Source of the DNA: a virus
Reading direction: 5' to 3' (one strand)
IMG/VR virus record: IMGVR_UViG_3300030109_000554
Span: 1 to 42,873 of that record
Length of the DNA: 42,873 bases
Position 1 is the stretch's first letter, and the number at the start of each line of letters is the position of its first letter. A program made the translations under genes and the position numbers. This document shows positions 199-42,873 of this stretch, piece by piece. The notes beneath the pieces were generated by a model. That model did not search any database and was not told the DNA's origin. It saw only the letters and a list, made by a program, of their open reading frames with translations.

Positions 199-1630
199 AG
201 TCTTCAGTTGTTTCAGATCTAATATTATAGTTAGCATATACATAATCCTGTAGTTTAATTATAACAGGACCATCTTCTGTTATTAATGTTCTGTCTACTT
301 CATGTGTAAATACAGGTTCAATACCACTACTAATATTATCAGCCGTAAAACTTATTGTACCAGTTGGAGCAATACTTGTCAAGTGGCTATTACGAATACC
401 TTGTTTAGTTATTAACTCAATTAAATCAGTAGGAATTTTTTTAGCAAATCCACTACTAAGATACTTGTCTTGATTGTATAAAGGGAATGAACCTTTTTTT
501 ACAGCTAAGTTAGAGCTTGCTTCTATAGCTGTATACGCTAATGTTTTTCCTATCTTACGTGTAAACTTTACTGCTTGGTCTGAACCATACCTTAGATTAA
601 TTAAAGTAAGACAGTTAGCTAATCCAGTTATTCCCAATCCCATTCTTCTTTTATTTTCAGCTTCAAGTTTTTGTTTAGTTAAAGGGTAGTTAGTTCTATC
701 AATTACATTATCCATAGCTCGTACAACATGTGGTATGTCTTTTTTAAACTTATCGAAATTAAATCTACTATTAGATACATACTTAATTAAATTAAAACTA
801 CCTAACAAACAAGCACCGTAAGGTGGTAGTGGTTGTTCACCACATGGATTAGTAGCTTCAATAGTTTCACAATATTGTAAAGGATTATCGTTATTAATCC
901 TATCTATAAATAATACACCAGGTTCAGCCCACTCCCAGTTAGCTCTCATAATTTCATCCCAAAGAGCAACAGCATTTATTTCTTTATATACTTTATTGTT
1001 AAAACGTAAACAAAATGGTGTACCTTTTATAACACTTTGCATAAATTCATCAGTAATTCCTACTGATATATTAAAGTTTGTAAGCTGGTCTTGGTTTTGT
1101 TTAGCTCGTATAAACTCTTCAATATCGGGGTGGTCTACACGTAAAACTCCCATCATTGCCCCTCTTCTATGCCCTGCTGATACAATTGTCCTACACACAG
1201 CATCAAAGATGTGCATAAAAGATACAGGACCACTAGCAGAGCTATCGAGACTAACAATCCTATCACCATTAGGCCGTATCCTAGAGAAATCATAACCAAT
1301 CCCACCACCTCTTCGCATTGTTTCAGCAGCTTGTGTAGCTTTCTCCATAATGGATACCATACTGTCTGTAATAGTTCCTGATACAAAACAATTATAAGCT
1401 GTAACATCTCTTGGGCTTCCCATTGCTGATTGAACTCTACCTGCTGGCATAAACCTTTGGTTTAAAAAAATATTTTTTATCTTTGCACGATGCTCTTCGT
1501 TATCAGCCATAGCAGCAGCATTTCTATGAGCAGATTCTTCAAAGCTTTCATTAGGTAGTCTATATTTATTAGCATGTAACTCATCACAAGCTGGTACTTG
1601 TGGGCCATACTTAATGTCTGGTATCGTCAT
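1..1630 (-). CDS. nrdJ: Adenosylcobalamin-dependent (class II) ribonucleotide reductase, main part
   Basis: Reduces ribonucleotides to deoxyribonucleotides for phage DNA synthesis, presumably in the host cytoplasm. Reading starts at ATG 1630, and the frame is still open at base 1; it finishes at the other end of the window (to 42596), giving about 569 residues in total. The class II signature NPCGEQPLPPYGAC is at residues 261-274, with catalytic Cys263. A second active-site cysteine is in YNCF (Cys81). APTGTIS and SSGIEP, also typical of class II enzymes, lie further on. No small (NrdB) subunit gene is visible, as expected for a B12-dependent enzyme. The protein is shorter than many bacterial class II enzymes, and no ATP-cone is apparent. 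The start overlaps the preceding gene by 20 bases, so it is the distal part of the leftward replication operon. Confidence 0.93.
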   Translation of the reverse strand, partial: MTIPDIKYGPQVPACDELHANKYRLPNESFEESAHRNAAAMADNEEHRAKIKNIFLNQRFMPAGRVQSAMGSPRDVTAYNCFVSGTITDSMVSIMEKATQAAETMRRGGGIGYDFSRIRPNGDRIVSLDSSASGPVSFMHIFDAVCRTIVSAGHRRGAMMGVLRVDHPDIEEFIRAKQNQDQLTNFNISVGITDEFMQSVIKGTPFCLRFNNKVYKEINAVALWDEIMRANWEWAEPGVLFIDRINNDNPLQYCETIEATNPCGEQPLPPYGACLLGSFNLIKYVSNSRFNFDKFKKDIPHVVRAMDNVIDRTNYPLTKQKLEAENKRRMGLGITGLANCLTLINLRYGSDQAVKFTRKIGKTLAYTAIEASSNLAVKKGSFPLYNQDKYLSSGFAKKIPTDLIELITKQGIRNSHLTSIAPTGTISFTADNISSGIEPVFTHEVDRTLITEDGPVIIKLQDYVYANYNIRSETTEDLTIDDHIKMQIAIQPYIDSAVSKTINVGDNVTFEEFKDVYIRGWKGKLKGVTTFRLAGKRYGILNK

Positions 1631-8917: not shown

Positions 8918-9706
8918 CTATATTTTACATAGTTCACATGACCCTTGATCTGTATCAAACATTTCATACTTTGTACCAGTGTCTTTTTCTAATTGCTGTA
9001 TTATTTTTAAACGCTCTTGTCCAACTTTTGTATTCAACATACGTTGCTGAACCTTTTTACCTGCTAACATACAGGGATAACATCCTACCCTATCATTAGT
9101 TCCTTCATCATATAAAGGATTTCTTTTAACTCCATTATCTTTTAAATAATTAAAGACATCATCTTCAGACCAATCAACAATTGGTAAACGTACCTTAATA
9201 GTAGCTTTAAGTTTTTTATTGTAACGTCTAGGGAATACATCTTCCATATCATAAACATCTAACCCTGTTATATCCCCATACTTTTTAGCTCTCTGTCCAC
9301 TCTCTTGAGTTCTCATTCCAAACCAAAACTCATATGTAGTTTCACCATCGTAAATATTATTCTTATAAAAATCTCTTAAAGCATACTGTTTAAGGTGAGT
9401 AGTACAGAACCTACCTAATCCAAAAGGAAATCTTCCTTGTGCTTTAATTAATTCAGGTAAAGTCTCTGCCTTCTTCCCATCCTTACGTTTACCACCATGA
9501 GTTTTATAAATTTCAATACCTAATCTTTCTTTTAGGTATTCTAAATACGAATAAGTTAATGGGTGCTCCCATCCAGTGTCATTAAAGACAGCAACAATAT
9601 TTTCTTTAGGGTTATTATTAAGAGCAAGAATTAAAGAAGCTGTACTATCCTTGCCCCCACTCATAGGTACTAAAATATTATTAGTAGTTTTTATTTTCAT
9701 ATCCAT
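8918..9706 (-). CDS. PAPS reductase/DndC-like PP-loop protein
   Basis: About 262 residues from ATG 9706. The PP-loop PMSGGKDST (residues 14-22) binds ATP or an adenylylated substrate in the PAPS reductase / ATP-pyrophosphatase superfamily. CTTHLKQYALRDF, GCYPCMLAGK and a C-terminal CELC supply conserved cysteines that could hold a cluster or carry sulphur, as in DndC-type and sulphur-transfer enzymes. True sulphate assimilation is unlikely in a phage. ATG 9706 is preferred over an upstream start because it forms a TAATG overlap with the methyltransferase stop and has AAAGGATT upstream. This coupling suggests that the two proteins act together on DNA or on a nucleotide; that is inference. Confidence 0.85.
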   Translation of the reverse strand: MDMKIKTTNNILVPMSGGKDSTASLILALNNNPKENIVAVFNDTGWEHPLTYSYLEYLKERLGIEIYKTHGGKRKDGKKAETLPELIKAQGRFPFGLGRFCTTHLKQYALRDFYKNNIYDGETTYEFWFGMRTQESGQRAKKYGDITGLDVYDMEDVFPRRYNKKLKATIKVRLPIVDWSEDDVFNYLKDNGVKRNPLYDEGTNDRVGCYPCMLAGKKVQQRMLNTKVGQERLKIIQQLEKDTGTKYEMFDTDQGSCELCKI

Positions 9707-10611
9707 TATAATAATCCTTTCAAGATATGCTCTATTACTGCACAAGTCATACCATTACCTAACATCTTATACCTTTGGGTATTGCTTACACCTTCAGTAT
9801 AATTATCAGGTAAGGTTTGTAGTCTTTCACATTCGATGGGTGTAAGCTTTCTCCATGTTGTATTGTTTGCTAATACTTTAGGTTCACGATGCCCACCCTG
9901 CATGGTTGTTAAGGTAGGAGCTTTACCTTCAGGATGATACACTCTCTTGATTGAGTCATGACCCTTAAGATTAGCATCACCTACATGACATAGCCCTTCA
10001 TTACTAAAGACTAACTGTCTCCTATGCTTTTCAAAGTATGACTTTAGATTGCCACCCTTGAAGTAGTTAGCATCTATGCAGTGAGACTTATTCCTATCAG
10101 AGAAACCATTCTCAAGGATATCCTGTAAGACAACACCTCTGTCTTCAGGTTGTGTCACTGGTATGTTAGTCCAATACAATCTCTTCCTATTCTGGGCAGA
10201 GACTAAAGAACTATTGATTTCAATAGGTTGTACCCCAAGATATCTACTAATAACATCTTGGTGTTCTTGTTTCATACGAACATTCTCAAAGAGAAACCAT
10301 GTTGGTTTTACTTTTTCAAATAGTTTGTACCATTCAAAAAATAACTTAGACCTTGGGTCATCAAACGCTAGTTGTTTACCAGCAAATGAAAAACCTTGGC
10401 AAGGTGATCCTGCTATCATAAGATCTATGTTATTGGGTGGGTACTGATCGGTTATATCACCACACTGTACTATATCAGGGTGGTTCTTTAATGCTATTGA
10501 GATTGCAGGTTTATCTATCTCATTAGCATAGTACCTACTCACTGGAATACCAAGATTTTTAAGAGCTTGATATCCTGTACCACACCCATCGAAACCAGAG
10601 TGTATTCTCAT
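9706..10611 (-). CDS. DNA (cytosine-5) methyltransferase
   Basis: A 301-residue C5 methyltransferase. Motif I is GFDGCGTGYQAL near the N-terminus. The catalytic Cys is in SPCQGFSF (about residue 71), motif VI is FENVR (about 108-112) and AQNRKRLYW follows (139-147). The C-terminus has RYKMLGNGMTCAVI, the motif X/IX region. The divergent motif I and NRKRLYWTN resemble DNMT3-like phage enzymes. It methylates cytosine in an unknown target, most simply to evade host restriction. I start it at ATG 10611, just after the stop of the preceding gene, with AAAAGG upstream. It is the second gene after a sigma-70 promoter and is coupled by TAATG to the PP-loop protein. Confidence 0.93.
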   Translation of the reverse strand: MRIHSGFDGCGTGYQALKNLGIPVSRYYANEIDKPAISIALKNHPDIVQCGDITDQYPPNNIDLMIAGSPCQGFSFAGKQLAFDDPRSKLFFEWYKLFEKVKPTWFLFENVRMKQEHQDVISRYLGVQPIEINSSLVSAQNRKRLYWTNIPVTQPEDRGVVLQDILENGFSDRNKSHCIDANYFKGGNLKSYFEKHRRQLVFSNEGLCHVGDANLKGHDSIKRVYHPEGKAPTLTTMQGGHREPKVLANNTTWRKLTPIECERLQTLPDNYTEGVSNTQRYKMLGNGMTCAVIEHILKGLL

Positions 10612-10613
10612 AG

Positions 10614-10811
10614 TCAATCCTTTTCATCTGCTGTATCAATAAAAGGAATCAAGTAAGAACCATCTTGGATTTCATTACCTTTTTGATACTGTAAGAAATC
10701 ATCTCCTAATGATTTATTCATACAATCTGAACATGGTTCAGGTTTTTTTGTAGTTTTATTTATTATTATTTCTCTTGTTAATAATAAACTATTACAAATA
10801 TAACATCTCAT
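10614..10811 (-). CDS. Small zinc-ribbon-like protein
   Basis: A 65-residue protein whose first 31 residues hold two CxxC pairs (CYIC and CSDC), a likely zinc knuckle. The rest is acidic and ends TADEKD. It is the first gene of the operon leading into the methyltransferase and DNA replication genes, behind a strong promoter and a TAGGAG ribosome site. Its role is unknown; a small regulator or host-takeover protein would suit the position. Confidence 0.75.
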   Translation of the reverse strand: MRCYICNSLLLTREIIINKTTKKPEPCSDCMNKSLGDDFLQYQKGNEIQDGSYLIPFIDTADEKD

Positions 10812-10832
10812 ATTTATAACTCCTATAACTAT

Positions 10833-10862
10833 ATAGTATCATAGCCAACTCAACCTTGTCAA
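10833..10862 (-). promoter_or_regulatory. Sigma-70 promoter for the methyltransferase-replication operon
   Basis: Minus-strand TTGACA (10862-10857), 18-base spacer, TACTAT (10838-10833), with TGA directly before the -10 box as in the other promoters of this genome. Confidence 0.85.
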
Positions 10863-10865
10863 CTA

Positions 10866-11147
10866 TTAATTTAAATTAATTAATTTATACTTACCTTGTT
10901 TAAGGTTAGCTTCAGTTTCTTTTTTCTTTTCATTCAGAAAAATATTTCTATACTTTCCTGTTGTCTTACTATAATCCCAGTAAGTAGGATCTAAATAGGT
11001 ATCTGTTAAGACACCACTAACATATTTTTTCTTACCAACTAATACATCATACGATTGAAACCATTCATAATATGTATTATTCTCTGCAACTTGAGTGATT
11101 TCAAACTGCCATTCACCCATCCTTCTAACTTTTATTGGTGCTACCAT
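10866..11147 (-). CDS. Small hypothetical protein
   Basis: A 93-residue protein from ATG 11147 with AAAGGAG six bases upstream; a longer TTG reading back to 11183 has no ribosome site and is unlikely. It is beta-rich at first (VAPIKVRRMGEWQFEITQ), then aromatic (many Tyr and Trp), and ends in a basic Lys-rich tail. No family is recognised. It ends just before the promoter at 10833-10862, so it closes the upstream block of early microprotein genes. Confidence 0.7.
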   Translation of the reverse strand: MVAPIKVRRMGEWQFEITQVAENNTYYEWFQSYDVLVGKKKYVSGVLTDTYLDPTYWDYSKTTGKYRNIFLNEKKKETEANLKQGKYKLINLN

Positions 11148-11195
11148 AGCTATCTCCTTTGTACCTACTATATGTTGTGTCAAGTATTATTTTTA

Positions 11196-11414
11196 TCATG
11201 GTATTTCATGGTGAACATGAAGATAATTAACCTTATCTTCTAAAGATTTTATATGTTCTTCTTGTACTTTTCTTAACTCTTTGTACAATGCAATTAAATC
11301 ACCATAATCTTTTATACGTTTAGATAAATACACTCGTTGCTCTTCCAATTCACGAATGTTTCTCTCCAACTCTATAATTTTATTTTTCATGATAATAACG
11401 TCTTTTTGTCTCAT
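11196..11414 (-). CDS. Small coiled-coil protein
   Basis: A 72-residue, highly charged protein with Leu/Ile heptads from about residue 9 to 65 (for example IIELERNIRELEEQRVYLSK), so nearly all of it is predicted coiled coil. It starts at ATG 11414 with AAGGAG upstream. Homo- or hetero-oligomerisation is likely, perhaps to inhibit or scaffold a host protein. It lies in the early microprotein cluster. No family is recognised. Confidence 0.72.
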   Translation of the reverse strand: MRQKDVIIMKNKIIELERNIRELEEQRVYLSKRIKDYGDLIALYKELRKVQEEHIKSLEDKVNYLHVHHEIP

Positions 11415-11426
11415 TGTATTCTCCTT

Positions 11427-11510
11427 TCACCATACTATACAAATTAATAAAAAAATAACACACATAAAAAATCCTGTCAAGATTTCTTTTAGTAACTCAC
11501 TCATTTTCAT
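11427..11510 (-). CDS. 27-residue membrane micropeptide
   Basis: ATG 11510 overlaps the stop of the upstream zinc-ribbon gene (ATGA), and GGGGAGG lies just upstream. The peptide has a short charged start (MKMSELLKE) and then a single hydrophobic segment of about 17 residues rich in Phe, Ile, Leu and Cys, ending in Trp. It would insert in the inner membrane. It is one of three such tiny membrane peptides within 500 bases. Confidence 0.55.
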   Translation of the reverse strand: MKMSELLKEILTGFFMCVIFLLICIVW

Positions 11511-11662
11511 TCGTCCTCCCCTTCACACATTGATTTATCTACCTTCCCAAGACTAGCATAACAATAATCACAGTAGATTTCATAGTACCCATTACGATCG
11601 ACACGCTCCATAATACCAGTGCCATCGCAATAATCGCAGTCAACTTCAATATACTCACACAT
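11507..11662 (-). CDS. 51-residue zinc-ribbon microprotein
   Basis: From ATG 11662 with AAAGGAGTGTGT upstream. Two cysteine pairs, CDYC near residue 9 and CDYC near residue 31, are separated by about 18 residues with a glycine-containing loop (CDGTG), the layout of a small zinc ribbon. The tail is acidic. The stop overlaps the next start. It is probably a nucleic-acid or protein-binding host-takeover factor; no family is named. Confidence 0.68.
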   Translation of the reverse strand: MCEYIEVDCDYCDGTGIMERVDRNGYYEIYCDYCYASLGKVDKSMCEGEDE

Positions 11663-11677
11663 TATACACACTCCTTT

Positions 11678-11755
11678 CTATTTAAATGGTGGATACGATG
11701 CCCATAAAAAAACTACTACTATAACAACATATAATAGTATAATAATTACATCCAT
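11678..11755 (-). CDS. 25-residue membrane micropeptide
   Basis: From ATG 11755 with GAGAGGAGTGTGTT upstream. It is a run of Ile, Val and Leu forming one transmembrane segment, ending ASYPPFK. It sits in a tandemly duplicated unit with the peptide at 11829-11912: both have the same GGAGTGTGT leader and a similar hydrophobic core followed by a Pro/aromatic end, so they may be paralogues. Confidence 0.52.
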   Translation of the reverse strand: MDVIIILLYVVIVVVFLWASYPPFK

Positions 11756-11825
11756 AACACACTCCTCTCATTACTCATACCTTTTTCTGAATAGCTCAAT
11801 AGTATCAACTACTTAACCTTCCGAA
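11753..11825. repeat. Duplicated leader, copy 1
   Basis: Resembles 11910-11984 at an offset of about 159 bases. An identical 20-mer (ctttttctgaatagctcaat) lies at 11781-11800, and a shared tcaactactta follows. The copy holds the ribosome site and upstream leader of the 25-residue membrane peptide. Confidence 0.8.
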
Positions 11826-11828
11826 AAA

Positions 11829-11912
11829 TTACCACCAACGCCAAGGCATAGTGATAACGATTACAACCAACAACCATACAATTATAGCTGTTGTTAATAA
11901 TATTTCTAACAT
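11829..11912 (-). CDS. 27-residue membrane micropeptide
   Basis: From ATG 11912 with GAAGGAGTGTGTGTT upstream. A single hydrophobic segment (about residues 2-22, Ile/Val/Leu) is followed by MPWRWW. It is probably an inner-membrane peptide and a likely paralogue of the peptide at 11678-11755, with which it shares a duplicated leader. Confidence 0.52.
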   Translation of the reverse strand: MLEILLTTAIIVWLLVVIVITMPWRWW

Positions 11913-11984
11913 AACACACACTCCTTCCATTACTGGGATCTTTTTCTGAATAGCTCAATCAATTCAACTACTTAGCTTCCCAAG
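11910..11984. repeat. Duplicated leader, copy 2
   Basis: Second copy of the leader at 11753-11825, with the same 20-mer at 11940-11959. It runs into the last codons of the 55-residue gene (stop at 11968-11970). Copy 1 keeps a decayed trace of the same codons, so the duplication included the end of that gene. Confidence 0.8.
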
Positions 11985-12135
11985 ATTGCATATCATGGGC
12001 AACTAATTCACAAATAGTATCCAACATCTCTTGCCCTGCTGGTGTTTCAGCTAACTCCATAGGACTTCTACCTGTTTTGTTATGCTTTTCCATAAGGAAA
12101 TCGTGCATCCGCAAACGCTCATCCAGTGTAGGCAT
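11968..12135 (-). CDS. Small hypothetical protein
   Basis: A 55-residue protein from ATG 12135 with GGAAGGAG upstream. It is mostly helical and mildly acidic (opening MPTLDERLRMHDFL), with a middle TGRSPMELAETPAGQEML. No family is recognised. Its last codons form part of the duplicated block that also lies ahead of the membrane micropeptides. Confidence 0.65.
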   Translation of the reverse strand: MPTLDERLRMHDFLMEKHNKTGRSPMELAETPAGQEMLDTICELVAHDMQSWEAK

Positions 12136-12193
12136 AGTTTACTCCTTCCATTTAGTTTACAGTTTAAACAAACGTGTCACACACTCATTCAAA

Positions 12194-12700
12194 TTAATTA
12201 ATTGTTACATGGGGTGCAGTACTTTTGAAGTAATTCTTCATCTTTAATACTGCTTCCATAGCGTGTTCATCACCCTTTGATTTTGTTTCATCACTATGAA
12301 ACTTTATTACTTTTGCAATCTTTTTGAAAAAATCATCTGCATCGAAATGAGTTATTGATTGATCTTTTGCTACCTTGTCCCAGAAACAATTCTTGATTGC
12401 TTCCGCTACGTTAGCAACAACACCATCATCACGCTTTACTCTAATAAGTTTTTTATCTTGCAGAGAGTACATTTGATCTGTGTACAATTCAACCCATGAA
12501 GCAAACGCTTTTTGTCCTACTTCTGCTTTACCTTTACCTAAAGCATTTAAAACATCATTCAAACAACCATGATCCCCATGATCGTTGTAATGTTGGATAG
12601 CAAAACATGACGCTATCCAAATGTTATTCTTACCAGATGTAATTTGTTTTACACCTGTTGCTAATACTTTTTGGAATTCACTTACATTTTTTATTTTCAC
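12194..12700 (-). CDS. Hypothetical protein of the early region
   Basis: A 168-residue protein starting at GTG 12700 with AAGGAG upstream. It is mixed and soluble. Residues 25-60 contain an aromatic, His-rich segment (CFAIQHYNDHGDHGC) followed by NALGKGKAEVGQKAFASWV. The C-terminal half is charged and helical. I do not recognise a named family, although proteins of this kind recur in marine T7-like phages near the start of the early arm. It follows a 300-base gene-free stretch and probably heads the microprotein operon. Confidence 0.8.
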   Translation of the reverse strand: MKIKNVSEFQKVLATGVKQITSGKNNIWIASCFAIQHYNDHGDHGCLNDVLNALGKGKAEVGQKAFASWVELYTDQMYSLQDKKLIRVKRDDGVVANVAEAIKNCFWDKVAKDQSITHFDADDFFKKIAKVIKFHSDETKSKGDEHAMEAVLKMKNYFKSTAPHVTIN

Positions 12701-13012
12701 GTTACATACTCCTTATTTTTAGAGAGTGTGCAACACGCTTGTTAAAACTGTAATATGGGAATATATAAACATAATGCTAGAATTCACGTTCAATATTTGT
12801 CACACCTCACCCATCGTAAAATACAGCAGGGTAATTCCTACAAACTAAACGCTTCATCATTCATTAGCGAGAGCAAAGAAAACGCACTTGTTGCATTCCA
12901 AGCACACTGGTTGCGTCCCAAACACGTTACAGGTTGCTAATCTGCTCTGCTCTGTCTCTCATTGCTTGGTTTAAAACACACCAGCATTATGTTATTTACT
13001 TCTAATTGATAG
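12701..13012. other. Gene-free stretch upstream of the 168-residue gene
   Basis: I see no convincing gene. It is richer in GC than the control region beyond it. It holds a repeat at a 20-base offset (12890-12905 and 12910-12925, GTTGCRTYCCAARCAC, 13 of 16 identical) and a weak minus-strand promoter candidate (TTGAAC at 12793-12788, 18-base spacer, TTTATA). It may contain a leader or a small RNA. Confidence 0.4.
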
Positions 13013-13049
13013 AAAAAACCTATCTCAATAGACTGCTTAACAGTCTATT
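13013..13049 (-). terminator. Intrinsic terminator after the 73-residue gene
   Basis: A perfect 9-bp stem (AATAGACTG / CAGTCTATT, 13027-13035 and 13041-13049) with a 5-base loop overlaps the stop codon. On the minus strand a run of six T follows at 13018-13013. Confidence 0.75.
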
Positions 13050-13269
13050 AAGCTACCTTTTTTCTAGGTGAAAGGTAAGCTTTCCACTCCCATTTAAGAG
13101 AACTCGCTTTAATTGAGAATGGGTCAATATTTCCAGAACATCTAATAAGACTTTTTTTCTGGTCAAAAGTATTCTCTCTTTTTTCTAAAACAACACCATT
13201 TAGAACTACTGCACCATTTTTCTTCAATTGACGCAATTGTTGCCTCTCTCTACGGCCTAATCTAGCCAT
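13048..13269 (-). CDS. Small basic protein with its own promoter and terminator
   Basis: A 73-residue protein from ATG 13269 with GAAAGG upstream. The first 18 residues are very basic and helical (ARLGRRERQQLRQLKKNG). A beta-like middle follows (AVVLNGVVLEKRENTF), and the end is basic (SPRKKVA). It is the first gene left of the control region, with a promoter at 13334-13362 and a hairpin terminator at its stop, so it forms a single-gene transcript. That fits an immediate-early regulator that binds nucleic acid or RNA polymerase. The role is inferred from position and charge; no family is recognised. Confidence 0.78.
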   Translation of the reverse strand: MARLGRRERQQLRQLKKNGAVVLNGVVLEKRENTFDQKKSLIRCSGNIDPFSIKASSLKWEWKAYLSPRKKVA

Positions 13270-13333
13270 GATAAAAACCTTTCTTTAGTTTAGGTAAGCG
13301 TTATAGAACACGCTTTAACCATTCAATATAATA

Positions 13334-13362
13334 ACTATAAACTAAGTAAATTTATAAATCAA
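13334..13362 (-). promoter_or_regulatory. Leftward sigma-70 promoter at the control region
   Basis: Minus-strand TTGATT (13362-13357), 17-base spacer, TATAGT (13339-13334). It faces the 73-residue gene, with a leader of about 58 bases. Confidence 0.65.
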
Positions 13363-13391
13363 GTAAAAAAAGCATTATTTTAAAACTTTAT

Positions 13392-13419
13392 ATCTATTAA
13401 ATTATAAAGGTTAATAGAT
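13392..13419. promoter_or_regulatory. 9-bp inverted repeat, candidate activator or operator site
   Basis: ATCTATTAA at 13392-13400 and its exact complement TTAATAGAT at 13411-13419, with a 10-base spacer. It lies 110-135 bases upstream of the first sigma-54-like site, a usual place for an enhancer-binding activator. Confidence 0.55.
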
Positions 13420-13527: not shown

Positions 13528-13543
13528 TGGCATGATTATTGCA
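13528..13543 (+). promoter_or_regulatory. Sigma-54-like promoter element 1
   Basis: TGGCATGATTATTGCA matches the -24/-12 consensus TGGCAY-N5-TTGCA with exact GG-GC spacing. First of four in tandem, all pointing to the late arm. Confidence 0.7.
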
Positions 13544-13554
13544 TGGGTAAAACT

Positions 13555-13570
13555 TGGCATGATAATTGCA
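13555..13570 (+). promoter_or_regulatory. Sigma-54-like promoter element 2
   Basis: TGGCATGATAATTGCA, 27 bases downstream of element 1. It has the same spacing, with all invariant bases present. Confidence 0.7.
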
Positions 13571-13582
13571 TAGATGTATAGT

Positions 13583-13598
13583 TGGCATAGTTCTTGCA
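13583..13598 (+). promoter_or_regulatory. Sigma-54-like promoter element 3
   Basis: TGGCATAGTTCTTGCA, 28 bases downstream of element 2. It has the same spacing, with all invariant bases present. Confidence 0.7.
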
Positions 13599-13621
13599 TA
13601 TCAATAACTTAGGGTAGTGGT

Positions 13622-13637
13622 TGGCATGGTTCTTGCA
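13622..13637 (+). promoter_or_regulatory. Sigma-54-like promoter element 4
   Basis: TGGCATGGTTCTTGCA, 39 bases downstream of element 3. Transcription from here would start near 13648 and give a leader of about 290 bases that contains the CTAT/ATAG array and a hairpin. Confidence 0.7.
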
Positions 13638-13670
13638 TGAGATGTATAGAAACAAGGTGATAGTTTAAAT

Positions 13671-40435: not shown

Positions 40436-40873
40436 ATGTTATCGTTATTAGGAAGTGTCTTAGGTTTTGGCACATCTATTATCCCTAAAGTATTAGGATA
40501 CTTTGAAGAGAAGCGAGATCAGAAGCATGAGCTTGAGATGATGGATAAACAACTCCAGCATCAGCTACAGTTAGGCAACCAGAAGATGCAGCTTATGGAG
40601 ATTGATGCTTCTATCAGGGAAGTAGAAAGCTTACACAAAGAACATGCTAAGATTACAATGAAGTCTAGTAGATGGGTAGTTAATCTTTCATCTTCAGTTA
40701 GACCATTAATAACATACCTGTTATTCTTTGAGTTTATGATACTAACATTCCTATTAGCTTTTGGTCACATTGATAACGGTATGTTTGCTCTTGTATGGTC
40801 ATCTGAAATCTCAAGCGTCTGGTCTGCTGTCGTTTGTTTTTGGTTTGGTCAACGTACATTTGGTAAGAGATAA
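40436..40873 (+). CDS. Holin (three-TM, GTA-holin-like)
   Basis: A 145-residue protein with an amphipathic N-terminus (residues 1-22) and a charged Gln/Lys/Glu coiled coil (25-70). Two strong membrane segments follow, at about 90-110 (PLITYLLFFEFMILTFLLAF) and 117-138 (MFALVWSSEISSVWSAVVCF), ending WFGQRTFGKR. This is the layout and C-terminal motif of the GTA/phage three-TM holin family. It would make the membrane lesion that releases the endolysin encoded downstream. CAGGAG lies upstream. It shares its left flank with the antisense promoter. Confidence 0.8.
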   Translation: MLSLLGSVLGFGTSIIPKVLGYFEEKRDQKHELEMMDKQLQHQLQLGNQKMQLMEIDASIREVESLHKEHAKITMKSSRWVVNLSSSVRPLITYLLFFEFMILTFLLAFGHIDNGMFALVWSSEISSVWSAVVCFWFGQRTFGKR

Positions 40874-41168: not shown

Positions 41169-41377
41169 TGGCTAAAAAAGAAACTTTAAATAAATGGTTT
41201 TCTCGTAACAAAGGTAAAGGCTGGGTAGATTGTAAAACAGGTAAACCTTGTGGACGTAAGTCAGCTAAAAATTCTAAACGTCCTTACCCTGCATGTAGAC
41301 CAACTAAGGCTCAATGTACTTCAGCATCTAAAAAGAAAAAGGGGCCAAGCAGAATTAGTTGGAAGAAAAAGAAATGA
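41168..41377 (+). CDS. 69-residue Cys/Lys-rich protein (DUF5872-like)
   Basis: From ATG 41168 (TAATG overlap). WVDCKTGKPCGRKSAKN, RPYPACRPTKAQC and a Lys-rich tail form a four-cysteine basic module resembling the second type of DUF5872 protein in marine phages. Its stop overlaps the endolysin start by ATGA. It may bind zinc and DNA; whether it enters the virion is unknown. Confidence 0.78.
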   Translation: MAKKETLNKWFSRNKGKGWVDCKTGKPCGRKSAKNSKRPYPACRPTKAQCTSASKKKKGPSRISWKKKK

Positions 41378-41817
41378 AGATAGCAACACCTGGATTGGAG
41401 ATCATAAAGTATTACGAAGGATGGTCATCATCAGTCTACCAATGCCCTGCTGGAAGATGGACACAGGGGTGGGGTAGTACGTGGGATCATCAAGGCAATC
41501 CTATCACCTCTAATAACCCTGACATTGATGAGATCACAGGCGAGTCGTATCTCAGACGAGAAATATTACACGTTGAGAAAGCAATTGGACAACTTGTTAA
41601 AGCGGAGTTAACACAGAATATGTTTGACTCAATCTGTTCTTTTTGCTACAACTGTGGTACCGGGGCATTTCAAAGATCAACTATGAGAATGAAGTTGAAT
41701 AGAGGAGACTACCTTGGTGCTTCAGATGAGTTTAAAAGATGGTGTCGAAGCGGAGGAAGAATCCTAAAAGGATTAGTATTACGTAGAGAAAAAGAAAAGG
41801 AGTTATTTTTATTATGA
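41374..41817 (+). CDS. GH24 endolysin (lysozyme)
   Basis: A 147-residue muramidase that degrades peptidoglycan at the end of infection. The catalytic set is Glu-8-Cys-5-Thr: EGWSSSVYQCPAGRWTQGWG, where T4 lysozyme has Glu-8-Asp-5-Thr. The Cys variant is known among phage endolysins. The pattern FDSICSFCYNCGTGAFQRST and the C-terminal GLVLRREKEKELF also match the family. ATG 41374 is chosen because it forms an ATGA overlap with the upstream stop; a TTG at 41359 is unlikely. There is no N-terminal signal or membrane anchor, so it depends on the holin. Confidence 0.92.
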   Translation: MKIATPGLEIIKYYEGWSSSVYQCPAGRWTQGWGSTWDHQGNPITSNNPDIDEITGESYLRREILHVEKAIGQLVKAELTQNMFDSICSFCYNCGTGAFQRSTMRMKLNRGDYLGASDEFKRWCRSGGRILKGLVLRREKEKELFLL

Positions 41818-42521: not shown

Positions 42522-42596
42522 CTATATAAATTTTAATAAATGTATTCCGATAACAAATAAATTAACTGCCCCATAAACAATTAAAATTGTAGTCAT
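42522..42596 (-). CDS. 24-residue membrane micropeptide coupled to RNR
   Basis: ATG 42596 forms a TAATG overlap with the RNR stop. The peptide MTTILIVYGAVNLFVIGIHLL... is one transmembrane segment. It has no ribosome site of its own, so it depends on coupling. The DUF3310 gene follows. It could localise something at the membrane, or be a chance short reading; I lean to the former because tiny membrane peptides recur in this genome. Confidence 0.45.
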   Translation of the reverse strand: MTTILIVYGAVNLFVIGIHLLKFI

Positions 42597-42873
42597 TAAC
42601 TGCACTCCTTTTGTCCTGTTTCTGGATCAATAAAACATGCTGACCCATCATGTTCTTCTTTAATTGCTGGCTCACTTTTATTTAGAATACCATACCGTTT
42701 ACCTGCAAGTCTAAAGGTAGTTACTCCTTTCAGTTTACCTTTCCATCCTCGTACATATACATCTTTAAATTCTTCAAAGGTTACGTTATCTCCTACGTTA
42801 ATTGTTTTAGATACTGCACTGTCTATGTAAGGTTGGATGGCTATCTGCATTTTTATATGGTCATCTATAGTTA
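42596..42873 (-). CDS. nrdJ: Ribonucleotide reductase, C-terminal part
   Basis: Continues the RNR gene that runs off base 1. Codons at 42676-42873 repeat those at 1-198 with one changed residue (Ile to Val in VYxRGW), and the unique part from 42675 gives the C-terminus. The end carries CFIDPETGQKEC, a cysteine pair that probably takes part in re-reducing the active site by thioredoxin or a similar donor. The stop (TAA at 42598-42596) overlaps the start of a membrane micropeptide. Confidence 0.93.
   Translation of the reverse strand, partial: TIDDHIKMQIAIQPYIDSAVSKTINVGDNVTFEEFKDVYVRGWKGKLKGVTTFRLAGKRYGILNKSEPAIKEEHDGSACFIDPETGQKECS
42676..42873. repeat. Right copy of the 198-bp terminal overlap
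   Basis: Equivalent to 1-198, with four base differences (at 42685, 42754, 42758 and 42839). See the left copy. Confidence 0.95.

Follow-up and report, generated by a model that had tools for sequence, protein, structure and literature searches.

Three predicted membrane micropeptide genes lie in a leftward block of small genes

The window analyzed here is a stretch of 42,873 bases from a virus of bacteria (IMG/VR record IMGVR_UViG_3300030109_000554). Its leftward genes include those for a family A DNA polymerase, a primase-helicase, a cytosine-5 methylase and a protein with a PAPS-reductase domain, and its rightward genes include a terminase, a head-tail adaptor/portal-type protein and holin-like and endolysin genes. 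In a DNA search of phage records, the nearest annotated terminases were those of Lentibacter, Roseobacter and Celeribacter phages, at ~65–68% DNA identity. Sequences matching the end and the start of the window (positions 42873 and 1) adjoin, in that order, in the contig of a sister phage (3300030098_001704), so the ends of the record are probably not genome ends.

On the minus strand of the leftward unit, in a block of 33% GC, we found three very short ORFs, each of which is predicted to encode a single-helix membrane micropeptide: MP1 (11829–11912; 27 aa, MLEILLTTAIIVWLLVVIVITMPWRWW), MP2 (11678–11755; 25 aa, MDVIIILLYVVIVVVFLWASYPPFK) and MP3 (11427–11510; 27 aa, MKMSELLKEILTGFFMCVIFLLICIVW). 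The best 17-residue Kyte-Doolittle means of their hydrophobic cores are 3.18, 3.35 and 3.06, and their Shine-Dalgarno (SD) motifs are AAGGAG, AGGAG and GGAGG, respectively. A first-pass annotation had described these ORFs as little more than one membrane helix each, with strong ribosome sites, and the ORFs proved to be where it had placed them and to fit that description. The few charges, read by the positive-inside rule, hint that the C-terminus of MP1 and MP2, and the N-terminus of MP3, may lie inside.

Between MP2 and MP3 lies a gene for a 51-aa zinc-ribbon product (11507–11662, minus strand) with a weak match to Lar_restr_allev (E=1.5e-4, under the curated cut-off). This gene has the leader GGAGTGTGT in common with MP1 and MP2, as the first-pass annotation had also reported. 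MP3 is preceded by GGGGAGG, and its start codon and the stop codon of the zinc-ribbon gene share bases (ATGA), a start/stop arrangement that is common in real operons. On the other side of MP1 is a 55-aa gene with its own SD (11968–12135, minus strand). The micropeptides are probably early genes, judging from their place in the leftward unit, where the methylase, primase-helicase and DNA polymerase genes come after them.

Two further features lie nearby. At 8918–10611 (minus strand), the C5-cytosine methylase adjoins the PAPS-reductase-domain protein, which matches SspD, BrxP and DndC models; the two may form a DNA-modification or counter-defence pair. At 13528–13638 (plus strand), a divergent intergenic region holds four tandem copies of TGGCAYRNNNNTTGCAT (0 expected, from 100 shuffles), a sequence consistent with a sigma-54 promoter (-24/-12 pattern). 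All four copies are kept in the sister phage, and one to four copies occur, in either orientation, in 25 of 111 phage loci.

The ORFs exceed chance expectation

At strict thresholds (SD>=5 and TM>=3.0), the minus strand of 10801–13400 contains 3 qualifying ORFs, against 0.00 in 400 dinucleotide shuffles; across the whole window there are 3, against none in 40 shuffles. Because dinucleotide shuffles lose codon structure, we took as a second yardstick a similar filter applied to 101 phage stretches (1.04 Mb; partly overlapping, and including the window). This filter returned 18 such ORFs, and 89 of the 101 stretches had none. The window accounts for four of the 18, namely MP1–MP3 and an ORF at 42522–42596.

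The ORF at 42522–42596 (minus strand; 24 aa, MTTILIVYGAVNLFVIGIHLLKFI) is a fourth membrane micropeptide candidate and is in frame in the sister phage, with conservative changes only. A 46-aa ORF at 1153–1293 (minus strand), with one strongly hydrophobic stretch, is likewise kept there.

MP1 is intact in a sister phage from which MP2 and MP3 are missing

The terminase of the sister phage is 95% identical to that of the window. MP1 is in frame in the sister, has the same length of 27 aa and is identical at 25 of 27 residues. A rate test would need more than these five nucleotide changes (three synonymous, I>V and R>H), and the similarity might also stem from recent exchange between the lineages of window and sister. 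MP1 is kept about as well as the zinc-ribbon gene (92% identity over 48 residues of the product) and better than the neighboring 168-aa and 72-aa products (62% and 69% identity). A frame-disrupting change in a close relative, which the first-pass annotation had named as evidence against these genes, was thus not found.

The same annotation had proposed looking for the pattern in sister genomes, and here the outcome was divided: MP1 is present in frame, whereas both MP2 and MP3 are lacking in their entirety, which appears to reflect gene turnover rather than frame decay. At the place of MP2 the sister has a different membrane ORF, of 40 aa, again behind GAGGAGTGTG. The 55-aa gene has no match in the sister loci, and the 72-aa gene is present without MP3.

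The sister locus also carries an insert of ~200 nt (L084, 4656–4860), flanked by MP1 and the 40-aa membrane ORF. Its folding is far better than that of shuffles (z -3.82), with a 12-bp closing stem followed by a T run, and it had no match in Rfam or in phage records.

Apparent separate exchange of leaders and ORFs

The window has four occurrences of GGAGTGTG where 0.50 would be expected, and three of the four are the starts of MP1, MP2 and the zinc-ribbon gene; the sequence is in excess in the sister as well. MP1 and MP2 are each preceded by a copy of a 66-nt leader repeat (family D1, minus strand; 11916–11981 before MP1 and 11757–11822 before MP2), and the two copies are 80% identical. In its 5' part, the copy before MP1 coincides with the end of the 55-aa gene (GGGAAGCTAAGTAG). 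The copy before MP2, located after the stop codon of MP1, carries GGAAGGTTAAGTAG; this resembles a leftover from the end of that gene, as expected from a duplicated or exchanged segment.

The sister has neither the 55-aa gene nor the leader copy that precedes MP1 in the window; its MP1 is behind the leader that serves the 55-aa gene in the window, with the junction around AATGGAAGGAGT. Since MP1 and MP2 share the 66-nt copies and the leader of MP1 differs in the sister, leaders and ORFs appear to have been exchanged separately. The comparison, based on two genomes, suggests recombination between short stretches of ribosome-site homology. In the leader copies we found no promoter-like site, and their folding was not notably better than that of shuffles (z 0.13 and -1.53). 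Matches to the leader core GAGCTATTCAGAAAAAG in three other loci (L089, L090 and L092) were set aside as chance, with no matching leader or micropeptide beside them.

More distant relatives carry peptides of similar design in the equivalent block

At least five more distant relatives (L005, L038, L006, L103 and L009) have other membrane ORFs of 24–40 aa in the equivalent leftward block. A 28-aa peptide, MSN[NK]REKFLD[VF]IKLLILCIMLVTASIVW, is found in L005 and L038, and L103 has it in frame and one codon shorter. L006 encodes a 24-aa peptide (MNTDLEFIKLLILVGMFVTACLLY) akin to that of L005; its ORF is in ATGA overlap with one for a 33-aa peptide, and a 40-aa homologue of the latter is present in L103. 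A 28-aa membrane peptide occurs in L009 and two further contigs, and longer hydrophobic proteins (64–66 aa) occur in the leftward block of L018 and L108.

The likeness of the L005 and L006 peptides was above all 300 shuffles. For pairs that involve the window's peptides, the corresponding counts against 300 shuffles were 1 (MP1/L005), 2 (MP3/L005), 1 (MP3/L009) and 5 (MP1/MP2); because 36 pairs were compared, any likeness of MP1–MP3 to peptides of the relatives is only suggestive. As the links to MP1 and MP3 are weak, we do not claim common descent. The kind of gene (one helix, 24–40 aa, its own ribosome site, in the leftward block) thus seems to be kept more than its sequence.

Searches for homologues gave little beyond these relatives. 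The MP1–MP3 cluster had no match in the DNA search of phage records, and tblastn with MP1 and the L005 peptide found none in the same records. By degenerate DNA pattern, MP1 was found only in the sister, while for MP2 and MP3 the sole hit was a 747-bp fragment that is identical to the window and lends them no independent support. The exact peptide pattern of MP1 was absent from 84,980 bacterial and archaeal genomes. Among PHROGs, the strongest hit for any of MP1–MP3 was to a family of unknown function (E=0.025), and Pfam and PADLOC gave nothing meaningful. The two peptides searched against PDB had no match.

The evidence favors genuine micropeptide genes over other readings

Four other readings of the ORFs, and a fifth in which the leaders are the promoter early stem-loops (PeSLs) considered below, all rank below genuine micropeptide genes. 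Chance ORFs might be expected in AT-rich DNA, given the 33% GC of the block and T-rich codons that favor hydrophobic residues, and the lack of MP2 and MP3 in the sister fits this reading. However, none of the 400 shuffles reached even one ORF at the strict thresholds, 89 of 101 phage stretches had no such ORF and MP1 is intact in the sister, which makes chance very improbable. Alternatively, the ORFs could be translated as leader or coupling ORFs that set the expression of the next gene, with a peptide that itself does little. They are indeed very short and close to downstream genes (the zinc-ribbon gene after MP2, the 72-aa gene after MP3), and the start of MP3 overlaps the zinc-ribbon stop. 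Yet each downstream gene has a strong SD of its own, the 72-aa gene is present in the sister without MP3, and coupling does not need the hydrophobicity that recurs in all three peptides and in those of relatives; we consider this reading improbable.

The single hydrophobic helix of each peptide would also suit lysis proteins of the holin, antiholin or pinholin type, and for MP3 there is a match to Phage_holin_3_3, though a sub-threshold one (E=0.066; 13.8 bits, where the cut-off is 28.4). But the micropeptides are on the opposite strand, together with replication genes, and the holin-like and endolysin genes (40436–40873 and 41359–41817) are in the rightward unit. With neither a family match nor a place in a lysis cassette, a lysis role is quite unlikely. 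Type I toxins, which are checked by an antisense RNA, resemble MP1–MP3 in size and hydrophobicity, and two of the ORFs are behind the 66-nt repeat. We found no promoter-like site on the plus strand of 11379–13005, no notable folding of the leader copies relative to shuffles and no match in Rfam, and we give toxin-antitoxin pairs very little credence.

By comparison, the genuine membrane micropeptide genes proposed by the first-pass annotation are borne out by ORFs beyond chance, an MP1 that is intact in the sister and membrane micropeptides in the same block of relatives. We consider it very likely that MP1 is coding and likely that MP2 and MP3 are too. On balance, MP1–MP3 are probably fast-turnover accessory genes for single-pass micropeptides that would insert into the inner membrane and may act on a host membrane protein.

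A model for micropeptide turnover and function

We propose that the leftward block is a hypervariable set of small accessory genes, ahead of the methylase and replication genes and probably expressed early, in which individual peptides would be gained, lost and replaced across related phages. The common leaders would be the short homologies at which gene cassettes recombine. If translated, each peptide would insert into the host inner membrane and there bind or perturb a host membrane protein; competing phages would then be excluded, or a membrane-linked defence or host function blunted. The first-pass annotation had suggested that the peptides could block superinfection, depolarise the cell or modulate host transporters; the searches gave no homologue with a known function. 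A part in superinfection exclusion, or some other effect on the host membrane, would be plausible, and an exclusion or anti-host role as such is a tentative suggestion that we hold to be rather doubtful. A still more speculative idea, and an unlikely one, is that this is a dedicated locus where the lineage keeps swapping single-helix membrane effectors through leader cassettes, so as to track shifting host membrane targets or rival phages.

Genes of this size routinely escape annotation. Here one design is found again and again in the same block of related phages while the sequences change, a pattern that points to selection for a membrane function, and such short peptides are cheap to assay for superinfection exclusion or host-membrane effects. 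The locus also offers an example of small-gene turnover at common ribosome-site leaders.

Comparison with known systems

Several bacterial regulators (KdpF, CydX, AcrZ and MgtS) are single-helix peptides of ~30–50 aa that bind a larger membrane complex. MP1–MP3 are likewise predicted to be small one-helix peptides; they differ in having no Pfam match and, for the two searched, no PDB match. Small phage genes missed by annotation have been found by conservation (Fremin, Bhatt, Kyrpides 2022, Cell Rep 39:110984, as cited in PMC10695390), and as far as that work is described there, those genes are, like MP1–MP3, too short for ordinary annotation.

The leaders have parallels as well. In cluster K mycobacteriophages, start-associated sequences (SAS/ESAS) are short conserved sequences with a ribosome site that precede several unrelated small genes (PMC3203893), much as MP1, MP2 and the zinc-ribbon gene are behind one short ribosome-site sequence. 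SAS, however, is of the GGGATAGGAGCCC type and found at many starts, whereas here GGAGTGTG is found at three starts of the window, in one cluster of three genes, and the 17-bp inverted repeat of ESAS is absent from the leaders. PeSLs of T4-type phages, as summarized in PMC4503421 (citing Arbiol 2010 and Comeau 2014), are repeated non-coding leaders thought to shuffle small genes. Repeated leaders and small-gene shuffling are seen here too, but the early promoter and stem-loop by which PeSLs are recognized in that summary were not found. Because they have no promoter or stem-loop and differ in sequence, we call the leaders similar to PeSLs and SAS and not members of either. Small phage membrane ORFs and common start leaders are both already known, and the MP1–MP3 locus is no new system but a clear and testable instance of them.
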